Positions 25,069-55,143 of a stretch of DNA of 64,000 nt are shown here, piece by piece; the first letter of the stretch is position 1, and each line of letters starts with the position of its first letter. Below the pieces are notes generated by a model. The model was given only the letters and a program-made list of their open reading frames with translations, searched no databases and was not told where the DNA came from. Source of the DNA: Bacteroidales bacterium (lineage in GTDB: Bacteria; Bacteroidota; Bacteroidia; Bacteroidales; VadinHA17); contig JANTGF010000013.1 in the NCBI GenBank assembly GCA_024763075.1, positions 1-64,000 on the forward strand, read 5' to 3'. Position numbers and translations under genes: made by a program.

Positions 25069-25848
25069 TTACTTCATGCCAATATTCACCCTGATCTCCT
25101 CAAAAAACTTATGCATACTTTCGGCATCCTTATTTTTAATCATTTTGATCAAAAGATCCAGTTTTTCCTGAATATTCTCAATCTGTTCGATGGTATAAGG
25201 ATTTAGAAGAATATTGGAGAGGAGATAATCACTTTCAGACAGGAGTCCCTTTGAAATACTAAGATGCTTCTTAAACGTCGTTCCGGGAACCTCCAATTCT
25301 TTCATGCAGGATCCAAAGACCAGGGAGGAAGCAAAAGGGATAGACAGGGAGTATGCAATGGTTTCATCATGCTTCCTGAAACTATAATCAAAAATATTCA
25401 GTTTTAAAGAATGATAGAAAGTCCTGAAAAACTTTTTACCTTCCTCATCGGATTCTTTTATTATGATTGCATTCTGATCACTCAGATCCTTAACATTCCC
25501 AAAAGTAGGTCCGAACATCGGATGGGTGGATACAAACCTGCGTCCCGACTTCAAATAAAAATCTTCCAGCCCGTTTTTAACCGATGCAATATCGGCCAGA
25601 ATGCAGGTTTCTGGAATATAAGGAAGGACTTCTTCAAAAACTGCTTTTGTGTGCTGAAGATCAGTGGAGTTAATTAAAATCTCAGGATTAAAATCCATAA
25701 ACTCATTATAAGACATAAATCTTTGAGAATTAAAAATATATCGCAGTTTTTCCTTCACAGGATCATATATTCCCACCTCATGGTCCAGACATAGTGATTC
25801 AGCCAGCCATGATCCCATATTCCCTGCTCCTAAAATTAATATCCTCAT
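25069..25848 (-). CDS. tyrA: Prephenate dehydrogenase
   Basis: A 259-residue NAD-dependent prephenate dehydrogenase that makes 4-hydroxyphenylpyruvate for tyrosine. The Rossmann motif MRILILGAGNMGSWLAESL opens the protein, with the ADIASVKNGLEDFY and FVSTHPMFGPTFGNV segments conserved in TyrA. It carries no chorismate mutase domain; that activity is on the fused DAHP synthase upstream in the operon. It is the last gene of the seven-gene aromatic operon, 30 bases after aroC. Confidence 0.88.
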   Translation of the reverse strand: MRILILGAGNMGSWLAESLCLDHEVGIYDPVKEKLRYIFNSQRFMSYNEFMDFNPEILINSTDLQHTKAVFEEVLPYIPETCILADIASVKNGLEDFYLKSGRRFVSTHPMFGPTFGNVKDLSDQNAIIIKESDEEGKKFFRTFYHSLKLNIFDYSFRKHDETIAYSLSIPFASSLVFGSCMKELEVPGTTFKKHLSISKGLLSESDYLLSNILLNPYTIEQIENIQEKLDLLIKMIKNKDAESMHKFFEEIRVNIGMK

Positions 25849-25878: not shown

Positions 25879-26871
25879 TTATTTCTGATTCTGCTCAAAA
25901 GCACGTATAAGCAAACTGAAATCCGCCATCGCAATTGCGGTTACCGCTTCAACCACAACCGGCACCCTCAGTGCAATACACAAATCGTGTCTGCCCTCCA
26001 CTTCCAGGTCCGTCATTTTTCCGGATTCAATATTAATTGTCCGTTGTTTAATGGAAGTACTTGATGTAGGTTTCACAGCTACCCTGAAAACAATATCATT
26101 TGAGTTGGTAATGCCCCCGTTTATCCCTCCGGCATAATTGGTTTCTGTTTTGCCGCTTTGATCAATAAAAGAATCATTATGTTCACTTCCATGCATTTTG
26201 GAAGCTGCAAAACCAGCACCAAATTCCACCCCTTTAATAGCAGGAATCGAAAACAACAAGTGACTTAATACTGCTTCGACGGAGTCAAAGAACGGTTCTC
26301 CCAGCCCGGCAGGAACATTTGAAACCACACACTCAACAACTCCACCAATAGAGTCTTTCTTTTCCACAGCAAGATCAATTGCTTTTTCTATGTCCTTCAT
26401 CCCTCCCGCTTCTATCAACTTTGCATTGATGTCCATATCGTTCACCACCTTTGAAGCAACCACTCCTGCAGCCACCAGACCCAGCGTTAATCTTCCGGAA
26501 AAATGGCCTCCACCTCGGTAATCTGTAAATCCCTTATATTTTTTATAAGCCACAAAATCGGCATGTCCGGGTCGTGGTATTTTCGTAAACAAAGAATAAT
26601 CCCTTGACCGGGTATTTGTATTCCTGAAAAGAATAGTAACCGGAGCCCCGGTAGTTTTATCATTGAATACTCCACTCAGAAATTCAGGGATATCCGGTTC
26701 AGTCCGCGGGGTGGTTCCCTTTGCTCCGCTTCGTCTCCGGTTTATCTCATCTTCAAAATCCTCTGTATTTATTGGTATTCCTGGAGGACAGCCATCAATG
26801 ACAATCCCAACGGACGGGCCATGAGACTCCCCAAAAATACTTACCCTGAAAATCCTGCCAAAACTATTCAT
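25879..26871 (-). CDS. aroC: Chorismate synthase
   Basis: AroC converts EPSP to chorismate with reduced FMN. The protein is 330 residues, a little shorter than the usual 350-360. Signature segments are present: FGESHGPSVGIVIDGCPPGIP near the N terminus, RPGHADFVAYKKY, YRGGGHFSGRLT and the C-terminal HDLCIALRVPVVVEAVTAIAMAD. The size difference seems to reflect shorter loops, not truncation. It sits 33 bases after aroA in the aromatic operon. Confidence 0.95.
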   Translation of the reverse strand: MNSFGRIFRVSIFGESHGPSVGIVIDGCPPGIPINTEDFEDEINRRRSGAKGTTPRTEPDIPEFLSGVFNDKTTGAPVTILFRNTNTRSRDYSLFTKIPRPGHADFVAYKKYKGFTDYRGGGHFSGRLTLGLVAAGVVASKVVNDMDINAKLIEAGGMKDIEKAIDLAVEKKDSIGGVVECVVSNVPAGLGEPFFDSVEAVLSHLLFSIPAIKGVEFGAGFAASKMHGSEHNDSFIDQSGKTETNYAGGINGGITNSNDIVFRVAVKPTSSTSIKQRTINIESGKMTDLEVEGRHDLCIALRVPVVVEAVTAIAMADFSLLIRAFEQNQK

Positions 26872-26904: not shown

Positions 26905-28209
26905 TTATATGGAAGTTTCATTTACAATTCCTCCAATTTTTTCAAGATCATCAAAAAATCCCGGCCACGACTTTGAAACACACTCTGCATGTTCTATATT
27001 CACCGGACCATCAGCTTTAATTGCAGCAACTGCACCGGCCATAGCAATGCGATGATCACCGTGAGAATGGACATTCCCCGATTTCACATTACCTCCGGTA
27101 ATCCATAATTCATCCTCTTTCAATTCTATTTTAATTCCCAGTTTTTCAAATTCTTCCTGTAAGGTTTTTGCCCGGTTACTTTCCTTTATCAGTAGTCGCT
27201 TTGCACCTTTCAAGCGGGTAATTCCCCTGCAATTCGCCGCAAGACAAGCCAATGGAGGAGCAAGGTCTGGACAATCCGTAATATCCATTTCGAAAGCCTT
27301 AAGCTCAGCGGAAGACACCTTAACCGCATCTTCTCCCCTTTCCAGGCCCGCACCAGCCAATTCCAGCGCTTCCAGAATCTGTATATCTGCCTGAGCAGAA
27401 AACATATCAATTCCGGATACTTCTACTTCACCGCCAAGAGCACCCGCCACTAATAAAAAAGCTACCCCGCTCCAGTCTCCTTCCACATAATAATCACGGG
27501 GTTGATAAGCCTGGCGACCCTTCACTTCAAAAATCCGGTGATCAAAATGTTTTGCTCCTACCCCAAATTCACGCATAAGTTTGAGGGTCATATCTACATA
27601 GGGTGTGCTTTTTAAATGATCCGCTACAATCTCAGAATCCTCTTCTGCAAGCGGAAGACTCATCAACAAACCTGTAAGAAACTGTGAGCTTTGCGATCCG
27701 TCAACAAAAGTAAGACCTGCATGCATGGGACCTTTCACTTTCACAGGAAGAAAACCCTTATTCGAAGAGATTTCCACACCCAGTTCCCTGAGTGGTTCCT
27801 CAATCATAGAAAGAGGCCGGCTGCGCAAAGTGGCTGATCCGGTTAAATTAATTTCCTTATCAAATAAAGAAGCAACTGCCACAAACAACCGGATTGCCAG
27901 CCCGGACTCCCCGCAATCAAGGATTCCCTCCTGAGGACTCAGGCCTCCTTCAATACTAATCTGATCCGGTTTTATATCAGTCTTTGCACCCAGGGAGGCT
28001 GCAACATTCAAAGCAGCCCTGGCATCGTCACAGAAAGAAGGATTTCGCAGAATACTGGTTCCTTCTGCCAGTGAAGCCGCAACTATCGCTCTGATCATCA
28101 TACTTTTGGATGGAGGAGCCTGTAACGATCCGGAAACCCTGAACGGATTTACGCTTATATTTTTGGTTTTTGAAGCCATTGCCATTTTAACTATTGGATA
28201 ACATTTCAT
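26905..28209 (-). CDS. aroA: 3-phosphoshikimate 1-carboxyvinyltransferase
   Basis: EPSP synthase transfers an enolpyruvyl group from PEP to shikimate 3-phosphate. The 434-residue protein has the N-terminal APPSKSMMIRAIVAASLAEG motif, the DCGESGLAIRLF segment, the SQSSQFLTGLLMSLPL substrate loop and the C-terminal HGDHRIAMAGAVAA motif. The annotated ATG at 28209 directly follows the aroB stop codon; the ATG codons at 28185 and 28179 would give a more typical N terminus. It is the fifth gene of the operon. Confidence 0.95.
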   Translation of the reverse strand: MKCYPIVKMAMASKTKNISVNPFRVSGSLQAPPSKSMMIRAIVAASLAEGTSILRNPSFCDDARAALNVAASLGAKTDIKPDQISIEGGLSPQEGILDCGESGLAIRLFVAVASLFDKEINLTGSATLRSRPLSMIEEPLRELGVEISSNKGFLPVKVKGPMHAGLTFVDGSQSSQFLTGLLMSLPLAEEDSEIVADHLKSTPYVDMTLKLMREFGVGAKHFDHRIFEVKGRQAYQPRDYYVEGDWSGVAFLLVAGALGGEVEVSGIDMFSAQADIQILEALELAGAGLERGEDAVKVSSAELKAFEMDITDCPDLAPPLACLAANCRGITRLKGAKRLLIKESNRAKTLQEEFEKLGIKIELKEDELWITGGNVKSGNVHSHGDHRIAMAGAVAAIKADGPVNIEHAECVSKSWPGFFDDLEKIGGIVNETSI

Positions 28210-29271
28210 TTAAAAGTCAATCTGTTTCAGCCAGTCTGAAAAAAAGTTTTCCAGTTTTTCAGGGGTGGTTTCCCATTCAACCGCGTGGCCAATGGTGTCA
28301 ATTAAAATAAAATGGATTTTCTCTCCCGATTTTTTTTTGTCTTTCTTCATTACGTCAATGATCTGATTTTTGTCCGGTTTTATTTTCCTTAACAGACCTG
28401 ACGCCAGAATCAGAGATTTTGCCCTTTCTGATTCCACCGGATCAAGATTTGCTTCTCTCCCTGAAATATAGAGAGCTACCAGCATTCCATAAGCAACGGC
28501 CTCTCCATGTAATAAACCATGCACTTTTTCAATAGCATGTCCAAAGGTATGACCAAAATTCAGAATTCTTCTCAATCCTCCTTCAAATTCATCCTTTTCC
28601 ACCACTTCTTTTTTGATATTGACTGACTGCCAGACCAGATCATGAACCACTTCCTCCTTTCTTTGGCGTATATCTTCCGTCTTGCTTGCAAATAACTCAA
28701 GGAGGGAGGCTTCACGGATTAAACCATATTTGATCACTTCTGCAAGCCCGGAAATGTATTCCCGTTCAGGTAAGGTTTTAAAAAGTTCATAATCACACAG
28801 CACAAAGGAAGGTTGATTGAAAACTCCAATCAGGTTTTTAAAATTCCCGAGATTTACACCGTTCTTACCACCCACACTTGCATCAACCTGTGAAAGCAGG
28901 GTTGTGGAAACAAAACCAAATTCAATTCCCCTCATAAAAGTAGAAGCTACAAAACCTGCAATATCACATATTACGCCCCCTCCTATTCCCAGAAGGAATG
29001 TGGAGCGATCAGCTCCGCATTTTACTAATTCCGTGTAAATAAATTCAACAGTTGCCAGTGTTTTAACCGACTCCCCCGGTTTAATTACAATTACAGGAAA
29101 AGCAGGAAAATCCGGTGCATACAGATCATAAACATTTTCGTCTGTCAGAATAATAACCTGATATTCAGGTAAATACTCACCCGTATTTCGCAAAGACCCG
29201 CCCACAACAACCCGGGACAAAGACTTTTTACCTTCCAATTCCAATTCCTGTATTTTGGGAGCAGGTTCCAT
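28210..29271 (-). CDS. aroB: 3-dehydroquinate synthase
   Basis: AroB cyclises DAHP to 3-dehydroquinate using NAD and a divalent metal. The 353-residue protein has the NAD-binding GGGVICDIAGFVASTFMRG segment, the VSTTLLSQVDASVGGKNGVN motif, and the metal-binding RRILNFGHTFGHAIE His pair. It lies between the fused DAHP synthase (28-base gap) and aroA (no gap) in the operon. Confidence 0.96.
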   Translation of the reverse strand: MEPAPKIQELELEGKKSLSRVVVGGSLRNTGEYLPEYQVIILTDENVYDLYAPDFPAFPVIVIKPGESVKTLATVEFIYTELVKCGADRSTFLLGIGGGVICDIAGFVASTFMRGIEFGFVSTTLLSQVDASVGGKNGVNLGNFKNLIGVFNQPSFVLCDYELFKTLPEREYISGLAEVIKYGLIREASLLELFASKTEDIRQRKEEVVHDLVWQSVNIKKEVVEKDEFEGGLRRILNFGHTFGHAIEKVHGLLHGEAVAYGMLVALYISGREANLDPVESERAKSLILASGLLRKIKPDKNQIIDVMKKDKKKSGEKIHFILIDTIGHAVEWETTPEKLENFFSDWLKQIDF

Positions 29272-29299: not shown

Positions 29300-30391
29300 T
29301 TAAATCTCCTTATTCATTATTTTGGTCTGGGTATTGATAGACTCCTGATGTACAGCCTTCAATATGGTACCGATAAAATCTTCACTAAGTCCCAGCTTTT
29401 TACCCACCTCTTTTCTTTCCTCCAGTATTTCTGACCAGCGACTTGTCTGAAGGATGGTAACTTTATTTTTTTTCTTCAATTCCCCGATTTTTTCAACCAC
29501 CTTCATTCTTTCCTTAAATATATGCAATACCTCATCATCAATCTGGTCAATTTTTGATCTGAGGATTTCCAGATCATGCATGAGTCCGTTGGTACCCACC
29601 TCAGATTTTCTCCAGATCAAAGAAGAAAGCAATTCTTCAAGTGCTTCAGGAGTTACCTGCTGGGCTTTATCGCTCAGGGCCTTATCCGGATCAATATGAG
29701 ACTCTATAAATAAGCCATCAAATGTTAGGTCTGCAGCTTTCTGGCAGACACCAGCCAACAGGTCACGTCGACCACAGATATGGCTGGGATCAACAATAAT
29801 GGGTAATTCCGGGAAACGTCTTTTCAATTCAATGGGAATGTCCCATTGAGGTTTGTTCCTGTAAGGAGAAGGTCCATAATGTGAAAAGCCCCTGTGGACA
29901 GCCATTAATTTTTTCATTCCTGCCTTATTCATTCTTTCCAGTGCACCCACCCATAAATCGATATCGGGGTTTACCGGATTTTTCACAAATACCGGAACAT
30001 CCTTGCCTCCCAGGTAATCAGCCAGCTCCTGAACAGCAAAAGGATTGGCTGAAGTTCTTGCCCCAATCCATAAAATATCCACCCCATGATCCAGGGCTTC
30101 TTTAATATGATGAGGGTTTGCAACCTCTGTAGCAATGATAAGCCCGGTTTCCTCTTTTAATTTTTGCAACCAGGGCAATGCAACCACTCCCAGTCCTTCA
30201 AAACTACCCGGACGGGTGCGGGGTTTCCAGATACCGGCACGGTAAATCGGGATTCCCATTTTTGCAATTTTTCTTCCGGTTTCCAGAACCTGTTCCTCTG
30301 TTTCAGCGCTACACGGACCGGAAACAAACACCGGAGTTTCTAATTTCTTGCCATTTACAACTACTTCCTCAAGATCTAATTTTGCATTCAT
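29300..30391 (-). CDS. Bifunctional DAHP synthase / chorismate mutase
   Basis: A 363-residue fusion. Residues about 1-260 are a type I-beta-like DAHP/KDOPS synthase: GPCSAETEEQVLETGRKI, AGIWKPRTRPGSFEGLG and the metal-binding PSHICGRRDLL. Residues about 270-360 form a type II (AroQ) chorismate mutase helix bundle (LRSKIDQIDDEVLHIFKERM, then WSEILEERKEVGKKLGL). The fusion couples entry to the shikimate pathway with the branch toward Phe and Tyr, and the mutase may serve as a feedback sensor. I chose the ATG at 30391 because the longer frame overlaps the aminotransferase gene and its extra N-terminal 45 residues look like shadow coding. Confidence 0.92.
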   Translation of the reverse strand: MNAKLDLEEVVVNGKKLETPVFVSGPCSAETEEQVLETGRKIAKMGIPIYRAGIWKPRTRPGSFEGLGVVALPWLQKLKEETGLIIATEVANPHHIKEALDHGVDILWIGARTSANPFAVQELADYLGGKDVPVFVKNPVNPDIDLWVGALERMNKAGMKKLMAVHRGFSHYGPSPYRNKPQWDIPIELKRRFPELPIIVDPSHICGRRDLLAGVCQKAADLTFDGLFIESHIDPDKALSDKAQQVTPEALEELLSSLIWRKSEVGTNGLMHDLEILRSKIDQIDDEVLHIFKERMKVVEKIGELKKKNKVTILQTSRWSEILEERKEVGKKLGLSEDFIGTILKAVHQESINTQTKIMNKEI

Positions 30392-30404
30392 TTTTTTCAA
30401 ATTA

Positions 30405-31565
30405 TTAACTATGCTTTTTAATTCTGTTTTTTGCTTTCTCCAATAAATCAATTTTACTACACAATGATATCCTGATATAGGGTTTTCCCTGATTTCCAAA
30501 AATAGCACCGGGAGTAATAAAGACATGTGCTTTATTCAACAACTCGTCTACAAAGTCAATGGAACTTTTCTGATTCTCAGGCAAACGGGCCCATATAAAC
30601 AAGCCCGATTGGTCTTTTTCATAAGAACAACCCAAAAGATCCAGAATTTCCCATGCCTTTTTCCTGCGTGATTCATACACCTTATTAATTTGTTTATACC
30701 AGTCGGGAGGATTGGATAAAGCTTGTACAGCACCCTTTTGAACTGATAAGAACATTCCTGATTGTATGTTACTCAGTACTTTCATTACAGATGTTATGTG
30801 CGATGGACTTCCTGTCATCATGCCAACCCTCCAGCCGGCCATATTATGTGATTTACTCAGGGAATTCAACTCCAGCACCACTTCTTTTGCATTTTCAACC
30901 TCCATAATACTGTAAGGATGGTCATTCAGGATAAAACTGTATGGGTTATCATGACAGATTAAAATATCATTTCTCTTTCCAAAGTCAACAATATCTTTAA
31001 ACAGCTGAAGCGAAGGTCGGGTTCCCGTAGGCATATGAGGATAATTCACCCACATAATTTTCACTTTTGACAAATCACTTTTTTCAAGTTGCTCAAAATT
31101 TGGAAACCAGTTGTTCTCTTCATTTAATTCATAAGGTATGACAGATCCACCCACCAACTTTGTAACAGAAGTATAGGTTGGATAACCGGGATCCGGTACC
31201 AGAACTTCATCTCCCGGATCTAAAAAAGCCATTGAAATATGGAAAATACCTTCTTTGGATCCCATTAAAGGTAAAATCTCTGTTTCCGGATCAATAACTA
31301 CATTATAATACCGCTTATACCAGTCTGCAAAAGCCTGCCTTAGCTCAGGAATACCTCTGTAGCTCTGGTAACCATGCCCATTTTGATTCCTCAACGCAGA
31401 TTCTGTTGTTGCCAGTGTCTGATCAGAGGGGGGCAAATCCGGATTTCCAATGCCCAGATTCAGGACATCGGCACCTTCCTGGTTCATCTTTTCAATTTCT
31501 TTTAACTTTCGGGAAAAATAATACTCCTGAATATTTTCAAGTCTGGTTGCAGTTGTTATACTCAT
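30405..31565 (-). CDS. PLP-dependent aminotransferase of the aromatic operon
   Basis: A 386-residue fold type I aminotransferase. The PLP lysine is in LNSLSKSHNMAGWRVGMM, with the LGIGNPDLPPS, DPGYPTY and NYPHMPTG motifs typical of class I/II enzymes. Its place between pheA and the fused DAHP synthase/chorismate mutase suggests that it transaminates phenylpyruvate and hydroxyphenylpyruvate, the last steps to Phe and Tyr. Sequence alone does not exclude aspartate or LL-diaminopimelate-type activity. Its ATG overlaps the pheA stop codon (ATGA), showing translational coupling. Confidence 0.88.
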   Translation of the reverse strand: MSITTATRLENIQEYYFSRKLKEIEKMNQEGADVLNLGIGNPDLPPSDQTLATTESALRNQNGHGYQSYRGIPELRQAFADWYKRYYNVVIDPETEILPLMGSKEGIFHISMAFLDPGDEVLVPDPGYPTYTSVTKLVGGSVIPYELNEENNWFPNFEQLEKSDLSKVKIMWVNYPHMPTGTRPSLQLFKDIVDFGKRNDILICHDNPYSFILNDHPYSIMEVENAKEVVLELNSLSKSHNMAGWRVGMMTGSPSHITSVMKVLSNIQSGMFLSVQKGAVQALSNPPDWYKQINKVYESRRKKAWEILDLLGCSYEKDQSGLFIWARLPENQKSSIDFVDELLNKAHVFITPGAIFGNQGKPYIRISLCSKIDLLEKAKNRIKKHS

Positions 31566-32413
31566 AATATTCTTTTCCCTTTTTTATATTCACCCAGGAT
31601 TCCCAGCACTCCGGTAAACGGACGAATCGCATTTAATGACTGCCTGTATAACTCCTCATCTTCATACAACATATCCACATAGAAGTGATATTGCCATTCC
31701 TTACCTACAATTGGCATGGACTGGATTTTTGTAAGGTTCATTTCATAATAGGACAATATGGAAAGTATCTTTGAAAGGCTTCCTGCTTTGTGAGAAACAG
31801 AAAAGAAAATTGAAGTTTTGTTATTTTCCGGAGAACTCAACAGATCACCATTGTCTGACAAAATCAGAAAACGGGTATAATTTAATTTGTTGGTTTCAAT
31901 GCTTCCTGCAAGGATTTCCAGATCATACTTTTCGGCTGCCACATCACTGGCAATCGCTCCAATTCCCTGTAATTCTTCAACCCGAATCTTCTGAGCACTC
32001 AAAGCGGTATCATTGCTTTCAATCAGTTTGATATGCGGATAATTTTCAAAATATGGCTGACATTGCAGGATCGCCATCGGATGTGAATAAACTTCTCTGA
32101 TTTCATTGATATGTTGCCCGGGAAGAGCCACCAGATTTTGCTTAATTCTCAGGAATATCTCACCTATTATTTTTTTCCCCGACTCCATGATTAAAGTATA
32201 ATTTGGCAAAATACTTCCGGCCACCGAATTCTCTATCGCCATAATCCCATAATCAGCCTGCCTGCTCTTTAGCGACTTAAAAAGATCTCTAAATGTTTCC
32301 CTGGGGACTATTTCAATATTCTCCGTTTCAAAATAATGCCTGGCGGCAATTTCATGAAATGCTCCGAATCCCCCCTGGATGGCAATTCTGTATTTTTTGG
32401 AGTTATTTTCCAT
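31562..32413 (-). CDS. pheA: Prephenate dehydratase
   Basis: A 283-residue prephenate dehydratase producing phenylpyruvate. The N-terminal catalytic part has IAIQGGFGAFHEIAARHYF, the YGIMAIENSVAGSI segment and the NYTRFLIL TRF motif. The C-terminal ACT domain (SVSHKAGSLSKILSILSYYEMNLTKIQSMPI) should bind Phe for feedback inhibition. I chose the ATG at 32413 because the longer frame opens with TTG at 32425. It is the first structural gene of the operon and is preceded by the attenuator at 32491-32596. Confidence 0.94.
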   Translation of the reverse strand: MENNSKKYRIAIQGGFGAFHEIAARHYFETENIEIVPRETFRDLFKSLKSRQADYGIMAIENSVAGSILPNYTLIMESGKKIIGEIFLRIKQNLVALPGQHINEIREVYSHPMAILQCQPYFENYPHIKLIESNDTALSAQKIRVEELQGIGAIASDVAAEKYDLEILAGSIETNKLNYTRFLILSDNGDLLSSPENNKTSIFFSVSHKAGSLSKILSILSYYEMNLTKIQSMPIVGKEWQYHFYVDMLYEDEELYRQSLNAIRPFTGVLGILGEYKKGKRIL

Positions 32414-32490: not shown

Positions 32491-32516
32491 AAAAAAAAAG
32501 TCCCATAACGGGACTT
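32491..32516 (-). terminator. Intrinsic terminator (attenuator) upstream of pheA
   Basis: On the minus strand AAGTCCC-GTTAT-GGGACTT forms a perfect 7-bp stem with a 5-base loop, followed by nine T residues (plus strand A run at 32491-32499). It lies between the promoter and pheA, so it would stop transcription before the operon. The promoter-proximal arm and loop (plus 32505-32513) can also pair with leader bases at 32537-32540 and 32547-32551, giving an antiterminator. Confidence 0.8.
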
Positions 32517-32539
32517 CTATCAAAATTATATAAAAATCC

Positions 32540-32596
32540 CTATCTGGTTATTTTACCAAAATAAAAATTGTTCATAAAATAATAGAAGAAATTCAT
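32540..32596 (-). CDS. Putative Phe/Tyr-rich attenuator leader peptide
   Basis: An 18-codon reading frame, MNFFYYFMNNFYFGKITR, with 5 Phe and 3 Tyr, is followed by a TAG stop, then the attenuator hairpin 24 bases later. It begins about 15 bases after the predicted transcript start and lies directly ahead of the Phe/Tyr operon. If Phe-tRNA or Tyr-tRNA is scarce, a ribosome stalled at the aromatic codons leaves the ATAAC and GGGA segments free to pair with the terminator's promoter-proximal strand; completed translation to the stop codon would cover them and let the terminator form. This logic is the classical amino acid attenuator. The peptide and its role are inferred from sequence only. Confidence 0.75.
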   Translation of the reverse strand: MNFFYYFMNNFYFGKITR

Positions 32597-32615
32597 TTTA
32601 CCTTAAATTTGGCTA

Positions 32616-32646
32616 CAAAGGTAATGTTTTATCAGTAACATGCAAA
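32616..32646 (-). promoter_or_regulatory. Predicted promoter of the pheA-tyrA operon
   Basis: On the minus strand TTTG (32643-32646) and TACCTTTG (32616-32623) are separated by 19 bases, an excellent match to the Bacteroidota TTTG / TAnnTTTG promoter. The transcript start would be near 32610, leaving a leader of about 200 bases before pheA that contains the leader peptide and attenuator. Confidence 0.7.
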
Positions 32647-32805: not shown

Positions 32806-33450
32806 ATGACCAAAAAGGAAAGATTTAAACAAATAATTACCTGGTTTAAAGAAAATGTTCCTATAGCTGAAACCGAACTAACTTACAAAGATCCTTTCAG
32901 TTTACTGGTTGCAGTAATTCTGTCAGCTCAATGTACCGACAAAAGAGTAAACCTGATCACTCCTCCATTACTTGAAAGGTTCCCGAATCCACAAGCCATG
33001 AAAAATGCCAGTCAGGAAGAAATTTTTGCTTATATTAAAAGTTGCTCTTATCCCAACAACAAGGCAAAACATATAAAAGCGATGGCTACCATGCTTGATG
33101 AAGTTTTTAATGGCATTGTACCCTCGGATATTCGGGAATTACAGAAGCTACCGGGGGTAGGAAGAAAAACAGCCAATGTGATTGCCTCTGTGGTATTTCA
33201 AAAACCTGCCATGGCAGTGGACACCCATGTTTTCAGGGTTTCAGAAAGACTTGGATTGACTACAGGAAGTAAAACACCTTTTGAAACAGAAATGGAACTG
33301 ATAAAATACATCCCTGAAGAATTAATCCCTCTGGCTCATCACTGGCTGATCCTCCATGGGAGATATACCTGTCTGGCCCGAAAACCAAAATGCAGTGAAT
33401 GCGGCTTAAAGCCTTGGTGCAAATATTATTACAAAAGAAAAATATCTTAG
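32806..33450 (+). CDS. nth: Endonuclease III
   Basis: A 214-residue DNA glycosylase/AP lyase that removes oxidised pyrimidines. The helix-hairpin-helix LPGVGRKTANVI contains the catalytic Lys121 and the later VDTHVFR provides Asp139. The C-terminal [4Fe-4S] cluster ligands are Cys189, Cys196, Cys199 and Cys205 (C-X6-C-X2-C-X5-C). Length and domain order match the E. coli family. It is divergent from the aromatic operon and is followed by a MITE-like repeat. Confidence 0.95.
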   Translation: MTKKERFKQIITWFKENVPIAETELTYKDPFSLLVAVILSAQCTDKRVNLITPPLLERFPNPQAMKNASQEEIFAYIKSCSYPNNKAKHIKAMATMLDEVFNGIVPSDIRELQKLPGVGRKTANVIASVVFQKPAMAVDTHVFRVSERLGLTTGSKTPFETEMELIKYIPEELIPLAHHWLILHGRYTCLARKPKCSECGLKPWCKYYYKRKIS

Positions 33451-54231: not shown

Positions 54232-55143
54232 TCAAACCCACTGCTCCTTTAGCTTTTCAACAATGCTTATTGCTTCTGTAGCAGCTTTAACATCGTGAAC
54301 TCTTAATATATCAGCTCCTTTCATGAGGGCAATCGTATGAACAGCGGTGGTGCCGTTTAGTACTTTACCAGGGGAAGTTTCCAATAATTTAAAAACCATA
54401 GACTTCCTCGATAAACCGGCCATTACAGGAACTCCCGGCAGGGAAAGAACATCCAGTGCAGCCAGTAATTGATAGTTCTGATCCAGTGTTTTCCCAAAGC
54501 CAAATCCGGGATCAACAATGATATCGTTCACTCCCAAACTGTTTAGCACATAAACTTTCTCAGCCAGATACCTAACAACCTCTTTTACAACATTCTTATA
54601 TACAGGATTGTCCTGCATATTCTCCGGGGTACCCTTCATATGCATAATAATGTATGGAACCTGTAATTCCCTGATCACCTCAAACATCTTTTCATCCAGT
54701 TCTCCAGCTGAAATATCATTGATCATATCCACTCTGAACTCATTCACCATCCTTTTTGCCACACCCGACCGGAAAGTGTCCACGGAAAGATAAATATCCG
54801 GAAACAATTTACGAATCTCCCCTACCGGCTCAACCAAACGGTCAAGTTCTTCGCTTTCTGAAATTTGCCTGGCTCCCGGACGGGAAGAGTTTGCCCCTAT
54901 ATCAATAAACTGAGCTCCTTCCTCAATCATTTTACCGGTATGATCAATGATTTTATCCATATTAAAATATCTGCCACCGTCATAAAAAGAATCCGGAGTC
55001 AAATTCAAAATACCCATAACCACAGGTTTCCCAAAAGAAAACAACTTTCCTCTGAGATTAATATGTGGTTTTTCCCGTTCTTTCCATTCCCATTCGGGTT
55101 TATCTTTGGAGCTTTTTAGAAAAGACTTATCTTTAGACTTCAT
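54232..55143 (-). CDS. folP: Dihydropteroate synthase
   Basis: A 303-residue folate-pathway enzyme that joins p-aminobenzoate to dihydropterin pyrophosphate, the sulfonamide target. The barrel begins at VVMGILNLTPDSFYDGGRY (residues about 41-59), with GAQFIDIGANSSRPGA, SVDTFRSGVAKR, NDISAGELD and the DPGFGFGKT motif. An extra charged N-terminal 30 residues precede the domain. It is tandem with cdaA, a common Bacteroidota arrangement, and divergent from tmk by 74 bases. Confidence 0.94.
   Translation of the reverse strand: MKSKDKSFLKSSKDKPEWEWKEREKPHINLRGKLFSFGKPVVMGILNLTPDSFYDGGRYFNMDKIIDHTGKMIEEGAQFIDIGANSSRPGARQISESEELDRLVEPVGEIRKLFPDIYLSVDTFRSGVAKRMVNEFRVDMINDISAGELDEKMFEVIRELQVPYIIMHMKGTPENMQDNPVYKNVVKEVVRYLAEKVYVLNSLGVNDIIVDPGFGFGKTLDQNYQLLAALDVLSLPGVPVMAGLSRKSMVFKLLETSPGKVLNGTTAVHTIALMKGADILRVHDVKAATEAISIVEKLKEQWV

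Follow-up and report, generated by a model that had tools for sequence, protein, structure and literature searches.

In Escherichia coli the pheL-pheA region carries Phe codons in a short leader, followed by a terminator and a first gene that provides prephenate dehydratase activity. In the enterobacterial thrL (Thr/Ile) and ilvL (Ile/Val/Leu) one leader senses several products of its operon, and in classical attenuators a protector hairpin couples the ribosome to the polymerase. According to a 2010 paper, no leader-peptide system was known outside Proteobacteria and Actinobacteria before its own case in the Firmicutes (PMC2965389). Within the Bacteroidota, Song et al. (2005) listed a putative attenuator ahead of the pheA > hisHb > aroAIb-aroQ > tyrA operon of Bacteroides thetaiotaomicron (PMC1173090, Table 7). 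This entry is a terminator/antiterminator prediction obtained from a website; the cited passages name neither a leader peptide nor its codons. In the same species, short ORFs reminiscent of leader peptides have been noted in long 5' UTRs (PMC7366714, 2020), and a 2021 study of Flavobacterium psychrophilum sees strong clues that amino acid operons there are preceded by leader-peptide attenuators, in one main-text sentence that does not name Phe/Tyr codons (PMC9723704). A further Bacteroidetes cis-regulatory motif, the Bacteroid-trp RNA (RF01692), is tied by its name to trp genes (PMC2864571). In a search of freely accessible papers we found none joining leader-peptide attenuation with Phe and Tyr codons; an earlier listing of Phe/Tyr leaders in Bacteroidetes may nonetheless exist. 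A sequence-only reading of the DNA studied here had held that such control was not well described for Phe/Tyr operons in Bacteroidota; this holds for the Phe/Tyr codons, which the cited passages leave unnamed, but passes over the hints of 2005 and 2021.

The leader that we describe lies on the minus strand of a 64,000-nucleotide stretch of a Bacteroidales genome, the whole of which we call the window, and stands ahead of pheA. Based on its conserved anatomy, selection on its codons, the complementarity of each antiterminator to its own terminator arm and a predicted switch in folding with ribosome position, we interpret it as a ribosome-mediated transcription attenuator that senses the charging of tRNA-Phe and tRNA-Tyr, and we put the probability of this interpretation at roughly 90%. 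It resembles pheL-pheA (Rfam Phe_leader, gammaproteobacteria) in its short leader with Phe codons, its terminator and the prephenate dehydratase activity of the first gene. Unlike pheL-pheA, it has no Rfam match, is unrelated in sequence, mixes Phe and Tyr codons, has a weak protector hairpin and precedes both branches together with the common pathway. Its apparent multivalence is that of thrL and ilvL, although the amino acids sensed and the phylum differ. The F. psychrophilum case would share its mechanism and its class (PMC9723704), and the attenuator listed for B. thetaiotaomicron, in the same place ahead of the same type of operon, is very probably the same element.

The anatomy can be read directly from the sequence. 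The promoter (32646-32616, minus strand) consists of TTTG at 32646-32643, a 19-nt spacer and TACCTTTG at 32623-32616, a combination that we take to represent the Bacteroidota TTTG/TAnnTTTG (-33/-7) form. Among 110 dereplicated relatives, 69 have a TAnnTTTG element no more than 70 nt before the start of the first leader; the corresponding frequency in shuffled sequence is 5.3%. The leader peptide ORF (32596-32540, minus strand) opens with an ATG at 32596, encodes MNFFYYFMNNFYFGKITR, in which 8 of 18 residues are Phe or Tyr, and ends in TAG at 32542-32540; its last aromatic codon is TTT at 32560-32558. The intrinsic terminator (32518-32491, minus strand) has the form AAGTCCC-GTTAT-GGGACTT plus nine T, with stem arms at 32516-32510 and 32504-32498 enclosing the loop GTTAT. 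The nine T occupy 32499-32491, two of them inside the stem, and the hairpin is predicted at -11.5 kcal/mol. It has the most stem pairs among seven terminator-like sites in 5 kb, and a loose detector run over the whole 64 kb on both strands gave five hits besides the pheA leader, none with a comparable terminator. A short promoter-near ORF rich in codons for the operon products thus precedes an intrinsic terminator, which in turn precedes the first structural gene. The sequence-only reading had proposed exactly this promoter, frame and terminator, and had assigned seven downstream aromatic genes, including chorismate mutase, both prephenate branches and the transaminase, with which Pfam agrees.

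These seven co-oriented genes, all on the minus strand, are presumably transcribed as a single unit. They are pheA itself, encoding prephenate dehydratase (31562-32413, ATG at 32413; PF00800, E 8e-56), a class I/II aminotransferase (30405-31565; PF00155), a DAHP synthase fused to a type II chorismate mutase (29300-30397; PF00793 and PF01817), aroB for 3-dehydroquinate synthase (28210-29271; PF01761, PF24621), aroA for EPSP synthase (26905-28191; PF00275), aroC for chorismate synthase (25879-26871; PF01264) and a tyrA-like prephenate dehydrogenase (25069-25848; PF02153, E 2e-8). On its other side the leader adjoins a divergent endonuclease III-like gene of the HhH-GPD type (32806-33450, plus strand).

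How widely is this arrangement kept? Using PheA as the query, we collected 193 pheA upstream regions from public genomes, taken partly from named species and partly from other members of the family, class and phylum of the source genome. The detector called a unit when a short frame in which Phe/Tyr/Trp made up five or more of ten residues was followed within 110 nt by a terminator hairpin and a T run. Before dereplication a unit was present in 147 of the 193 regions. After dereplication it was present in 112 of 131 regions of Bacteroidia-type pheA, compared with 9 of 1310 dinucleotide shuffles (0.7%) and 8 of 131 reverse strands for the same detector. Inspection of the misses revealed at least five further clear units. 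In a later sample, drawn nearly entirely from the order of the source genome, 44 of 49 loci had the unit and two of the misses are contig ends. Named carriers include Ancylomarina, Kordia, Mesohalobacter, Alistipes and rumen Bacteroidales. The same detector found a unit at none of 27 pheA loci from other lineages of the phylum, and two loci labelled Planctomycetaceae and Caldithrix have no leader. Within the Bacteroidia the unit is absent from four single loci and from six loci of termite-gut Prevotellaceae, and it is also missing ahead of the pheA of a 1.2-Mb genome; in the Prevotellaceae and in this small genome the leader has perhaps been lost with host association. Conservation in relatives had been set beforehand as the test of the sequence-only reading. 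Across Bacteroidia it was found for the frame and its Phe/Tyr codons, for the terminator and for an antiterminator that covaries with it.

Selection acts on the aromatic codons themselves. When the same criterion is applied to all 190 amino-acid pairs, Phe+Tyr ranks first with 108 regions and Phe+Ser follows with 82. Leaders contain 5 to 13 aromatic codons (median 9); both Phe and Tyr are found in 119 of 121 leaders and a Trp codon is additionally found in 38 of 121. Going by these codons, Trp is apparently also sensed in a third of the relatives, with units sometimes in tandem. Differences at aromatic codons in 45 independent close pairs comprise 31 synonymous changes, 33 exchanges between aromatic residues and 33 replacements by any other residue. 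Single-base changes in TTY/TAY codons would by chance give the first two classes only about 2/9 of the total (P 4e-20; transition bias is left out of this simple calculation, but a Phe<->Tyr exchange requires a transversion). The dominance of synonymous and Phe<->Tyr changes implies that what selection keeps is 'aromatic' and not one specific peptide. This bears directly on the possibility that the nascent peptide arrests the ribosome in the manner of TnaC and responds to a ligand in the exit tunnel, be it free Phe/Tyr or some other, rather than to tRNA charging. TnaC-type systems likewise use leader peptides, and a short conserved frame does stand before the terminator here. However, arrest peptides usually keep specific residues, whereas these peptides diverge outside the aromatic cluster and swap Phe and Tyr freely, and their number of aromatic codons is typical of leaders that count codons. 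We therefore consider peptide arrest improbable.

The second pillar of the attenuator interpretation is the antiterminator. Its 5' strand, GGGATTTTTAT (32540-32530, minus strand), begins at the last base of the stop codon and pairs over 11 bp with the 3' strand ATAGAAGTCCC (32520-32510, minus strand), which includes the terminator 5' arm, so that the two structures are mutually exclusive. The helix is predicted at -11.7 kcal/mol alone and at -12.0 kcal/mol with the ATAAC/GTTAT and GGGA/TCCC pairs added. The sequence-only reading had built its alternative pairing from ATAAC (32551-32547) with GTTAT and GGGA with TCCC. An antiterminator is indeed predicted and starts with that same GGGA, but the proposed pairs amount to only -3.4 kcal/mol and give way to GGGATTTTTAT/ATAGAAGTCCC. 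In 121 units we paired, unit by unit, the stretch after the last aromatic codon with the terminator 5' arm. Pairing with the own arm averages -14.8 kcal/mol against -9.7 kcal/mol with foreign, dissimilar arms, and the own arm is better in 118 of 121. For an upstream coding stretch, used as a control for composition, the values are -6.4 and -5.6 kcal/mol (difference 0.9). At least 53 distinct antiterminator words form six or more consecutive Watson-Crick pairs, a diversity that points to compensatory change. In an alignment of one subgroup the antiterminator is too conserved to inform on covariation. When the stop codon serves as the anchor in place of the last aromatic codon, own and foreign pairing are less distinct (-9.6 against -7.2), because the antiterminator strand sits within the coding sequence in many lineages.

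Indeed, in many leaders the codons of the peptide tail encode the antiterminator, as in two leaders that end in ...SRD, where the strand contains CGGGAC. The start of the antiterminator lies a median of 9 nt past the last aromatic codon with an SD of 3.5 nt, whereas relative to the stop codon the SD is 10.6 nt and positions range from well inside the frame to just past the stop. A set distance to the stalling codons, with a stop merely far enough downstream to cover the strand, fits what a stalled-ribosome mechanism needs. The same geometry weighs against a metabolite-, tRNA- or protein-binding RNA (a riboswitch, T-box or TRAP-like element) that drives the terminator while the small frame is incidental. 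Any sensor could drive a terminator with a competing structure, and the leader RNA does fold better than its shuffles (z -2.3). However, an Rfam 15 scan of the leader, Phe_leader and T-box included, returned no family at its gathering score, the frame is under codon-level selection and the spacing between the last aromatic codon and the antiterminator is maintained. Such an RNA is, in our estimation, even less probable than peptide arrest.

Two other explanations have almost no claim left. An unregulated terminator, which merely ends a small RNA or read-through from upstream and is accompanied by a chance frame, could draw on the Phe/Tyr-rich frames that AT-rich sequence yields by chance, as the shuffles show, but it is refuted for the class by conservation, by genome-specific complementarity to the terminator arm and by codon selection. 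Control of pheA translation by reinitiation or sequestration, instead of transcription, is just as hard to credit: short upstream frames can feed reinitiation (PMC4833913), but here 126 nt containing the nine-T terminator separate the leader stop from the pheA ATG in the window, and in 164 units the terminator begins 23-39 nt after the leader stop (10th-90th percentile).

Predicted folds supply the dynamic side of the ribosome-mediated attenuator. RNA was folded from 10 nt past the A-site codon, an assumed footprint, to the terminator loop. The mean pairing of the terminator 5' arm is 0.73 when the A site holds the last aromatic codon and 0.22 when the ribosome is on the stop. It is 0.78-0.79 one to five codons before the last aromatic codon and falls to 0.56, 0.36 and 0.26 one, two and three codons after it. 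In the window the value drops from 0.92 at the last aromatic codon to 0.24 at the stop, and the change has the expected direction in 119 of 121 leaders. In silico, therefore, a stalled ribosome frees the antiterminator strand and a ribosome at the stop codon covers it. With no ribosome at all, arm pairing averages 0.71 (window 0.65); since the arm is then predicted to be paired upstream, transcription of a leader that is not translated might run past the terminator instead of ending there. A 1:2 protector hairpin may exist as well. The candidate in the window (32560-32543, minus strand) pairs TTTGGT at 32560-32555 with ACCAGA at 32548-32543, overlaps the last Phe codon and in a longer alternative extends to GGGA. 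Across relatives, pairing of the coding region with the antiterminator strand is 0.65 against 0.53 in codon-shuffled controls, a weak but significant excess (window 0.80 against 0.55).

From these data we infer the following course of stalling, termination and read-through in the cell. A ribosome would translate MNFFYYFMNNFYFGKITR as RNA polymerase proceeds along the leader. When Phe or Tyr is scarce, the ribosome would stall on the aromatic codons with its leading edge just short of GGGATTTTTAT; the free strand would then pair with ATAGAAGTCCC, occupy the terminator 5' arm and allow read-through into the seven-gene operon. If Phe and Tyr are plentiful, the ribosome would reach the stop and cover GGGATTTTTAT, the terminator (32516-32498) would form and transcription would end. 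GGGATTTTTAT and AGAAGTCCC are the segments in which single and compensatory changes would have predicted effects on read-through. The classical attenuator logic of the sequence-only reading is thereby supported, on comparative and modelled grounds, by conservation, codon selection, covariation and the predicted fold switch.

Sixteen of the collected loci carry two successive leader-terminator units upstream of pheA. Among the lineages concerned there are several in which a Trp codon is found in the second unit only, the first being confined to Phe/Tyr, although few independent lineages were sampled. It is conceivable, if somewhat doubtful, that tandem attenuators act as a serial gate, so that Phe, Tyr and Trp are all sensed ahead of an operon feeding the pathways to each of them; we know of no such design described for leader peptides. 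In keeping with attenuation at pheA, other operons of the source genome have leaders too: ahead of trpE (contig C4, about position 54755) two with Trp runs, MHKNSNKNWWWHNDFDQTL and MSAWWWQWNGT, stand in tandem, both with an intrinsic terminator of their own, and ahead of hisG (contig C25, about position 25520) a His-rich leader, MKSFQLHHLHHHTGFQARRR, precedes a terminator. The covariance model of Bacteroid-trp RF01692 has no match anywhere in this genome, although its trpE has Trp-rich leaders. The leuA upstream regions, which seem to be operon-internal, contain no leader-terminator unit.

Bacteroidia-type PheA is also encoded in six genomes outside the class, five of which have the leader. 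The other PheA proteins sampled from outside the class, some of them from the same families, fall into a clade of their own with 99/96 support, and their genes are without the leader. The PheA tree requires at least three changes of class label, so that pheA and its leader seem to have entered other classes as a pair, by horizontal transfer and on more than one occasion.

What are the consequences for the biology of the class? Our data indicate that Phe/Tyr synthesis in the Bacteroidia is widely, and probably ancestrally, controlled by leader-peptide attenuation. The class includes dominant gut and marine bacteria, and little has been described of how it regulates amino acid synthesis. Rfam has no family for the element, and frames this small readily escape annotation. 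What is gained is a candidate bivalent Phe/Tyr sensor together with a geometric rule, in which the antiterminator starts about 9 nt past the last aromatic codon while the stop codon is free to move. The unit also predicts transcripts that are open to immediate testing in laboratory strains.
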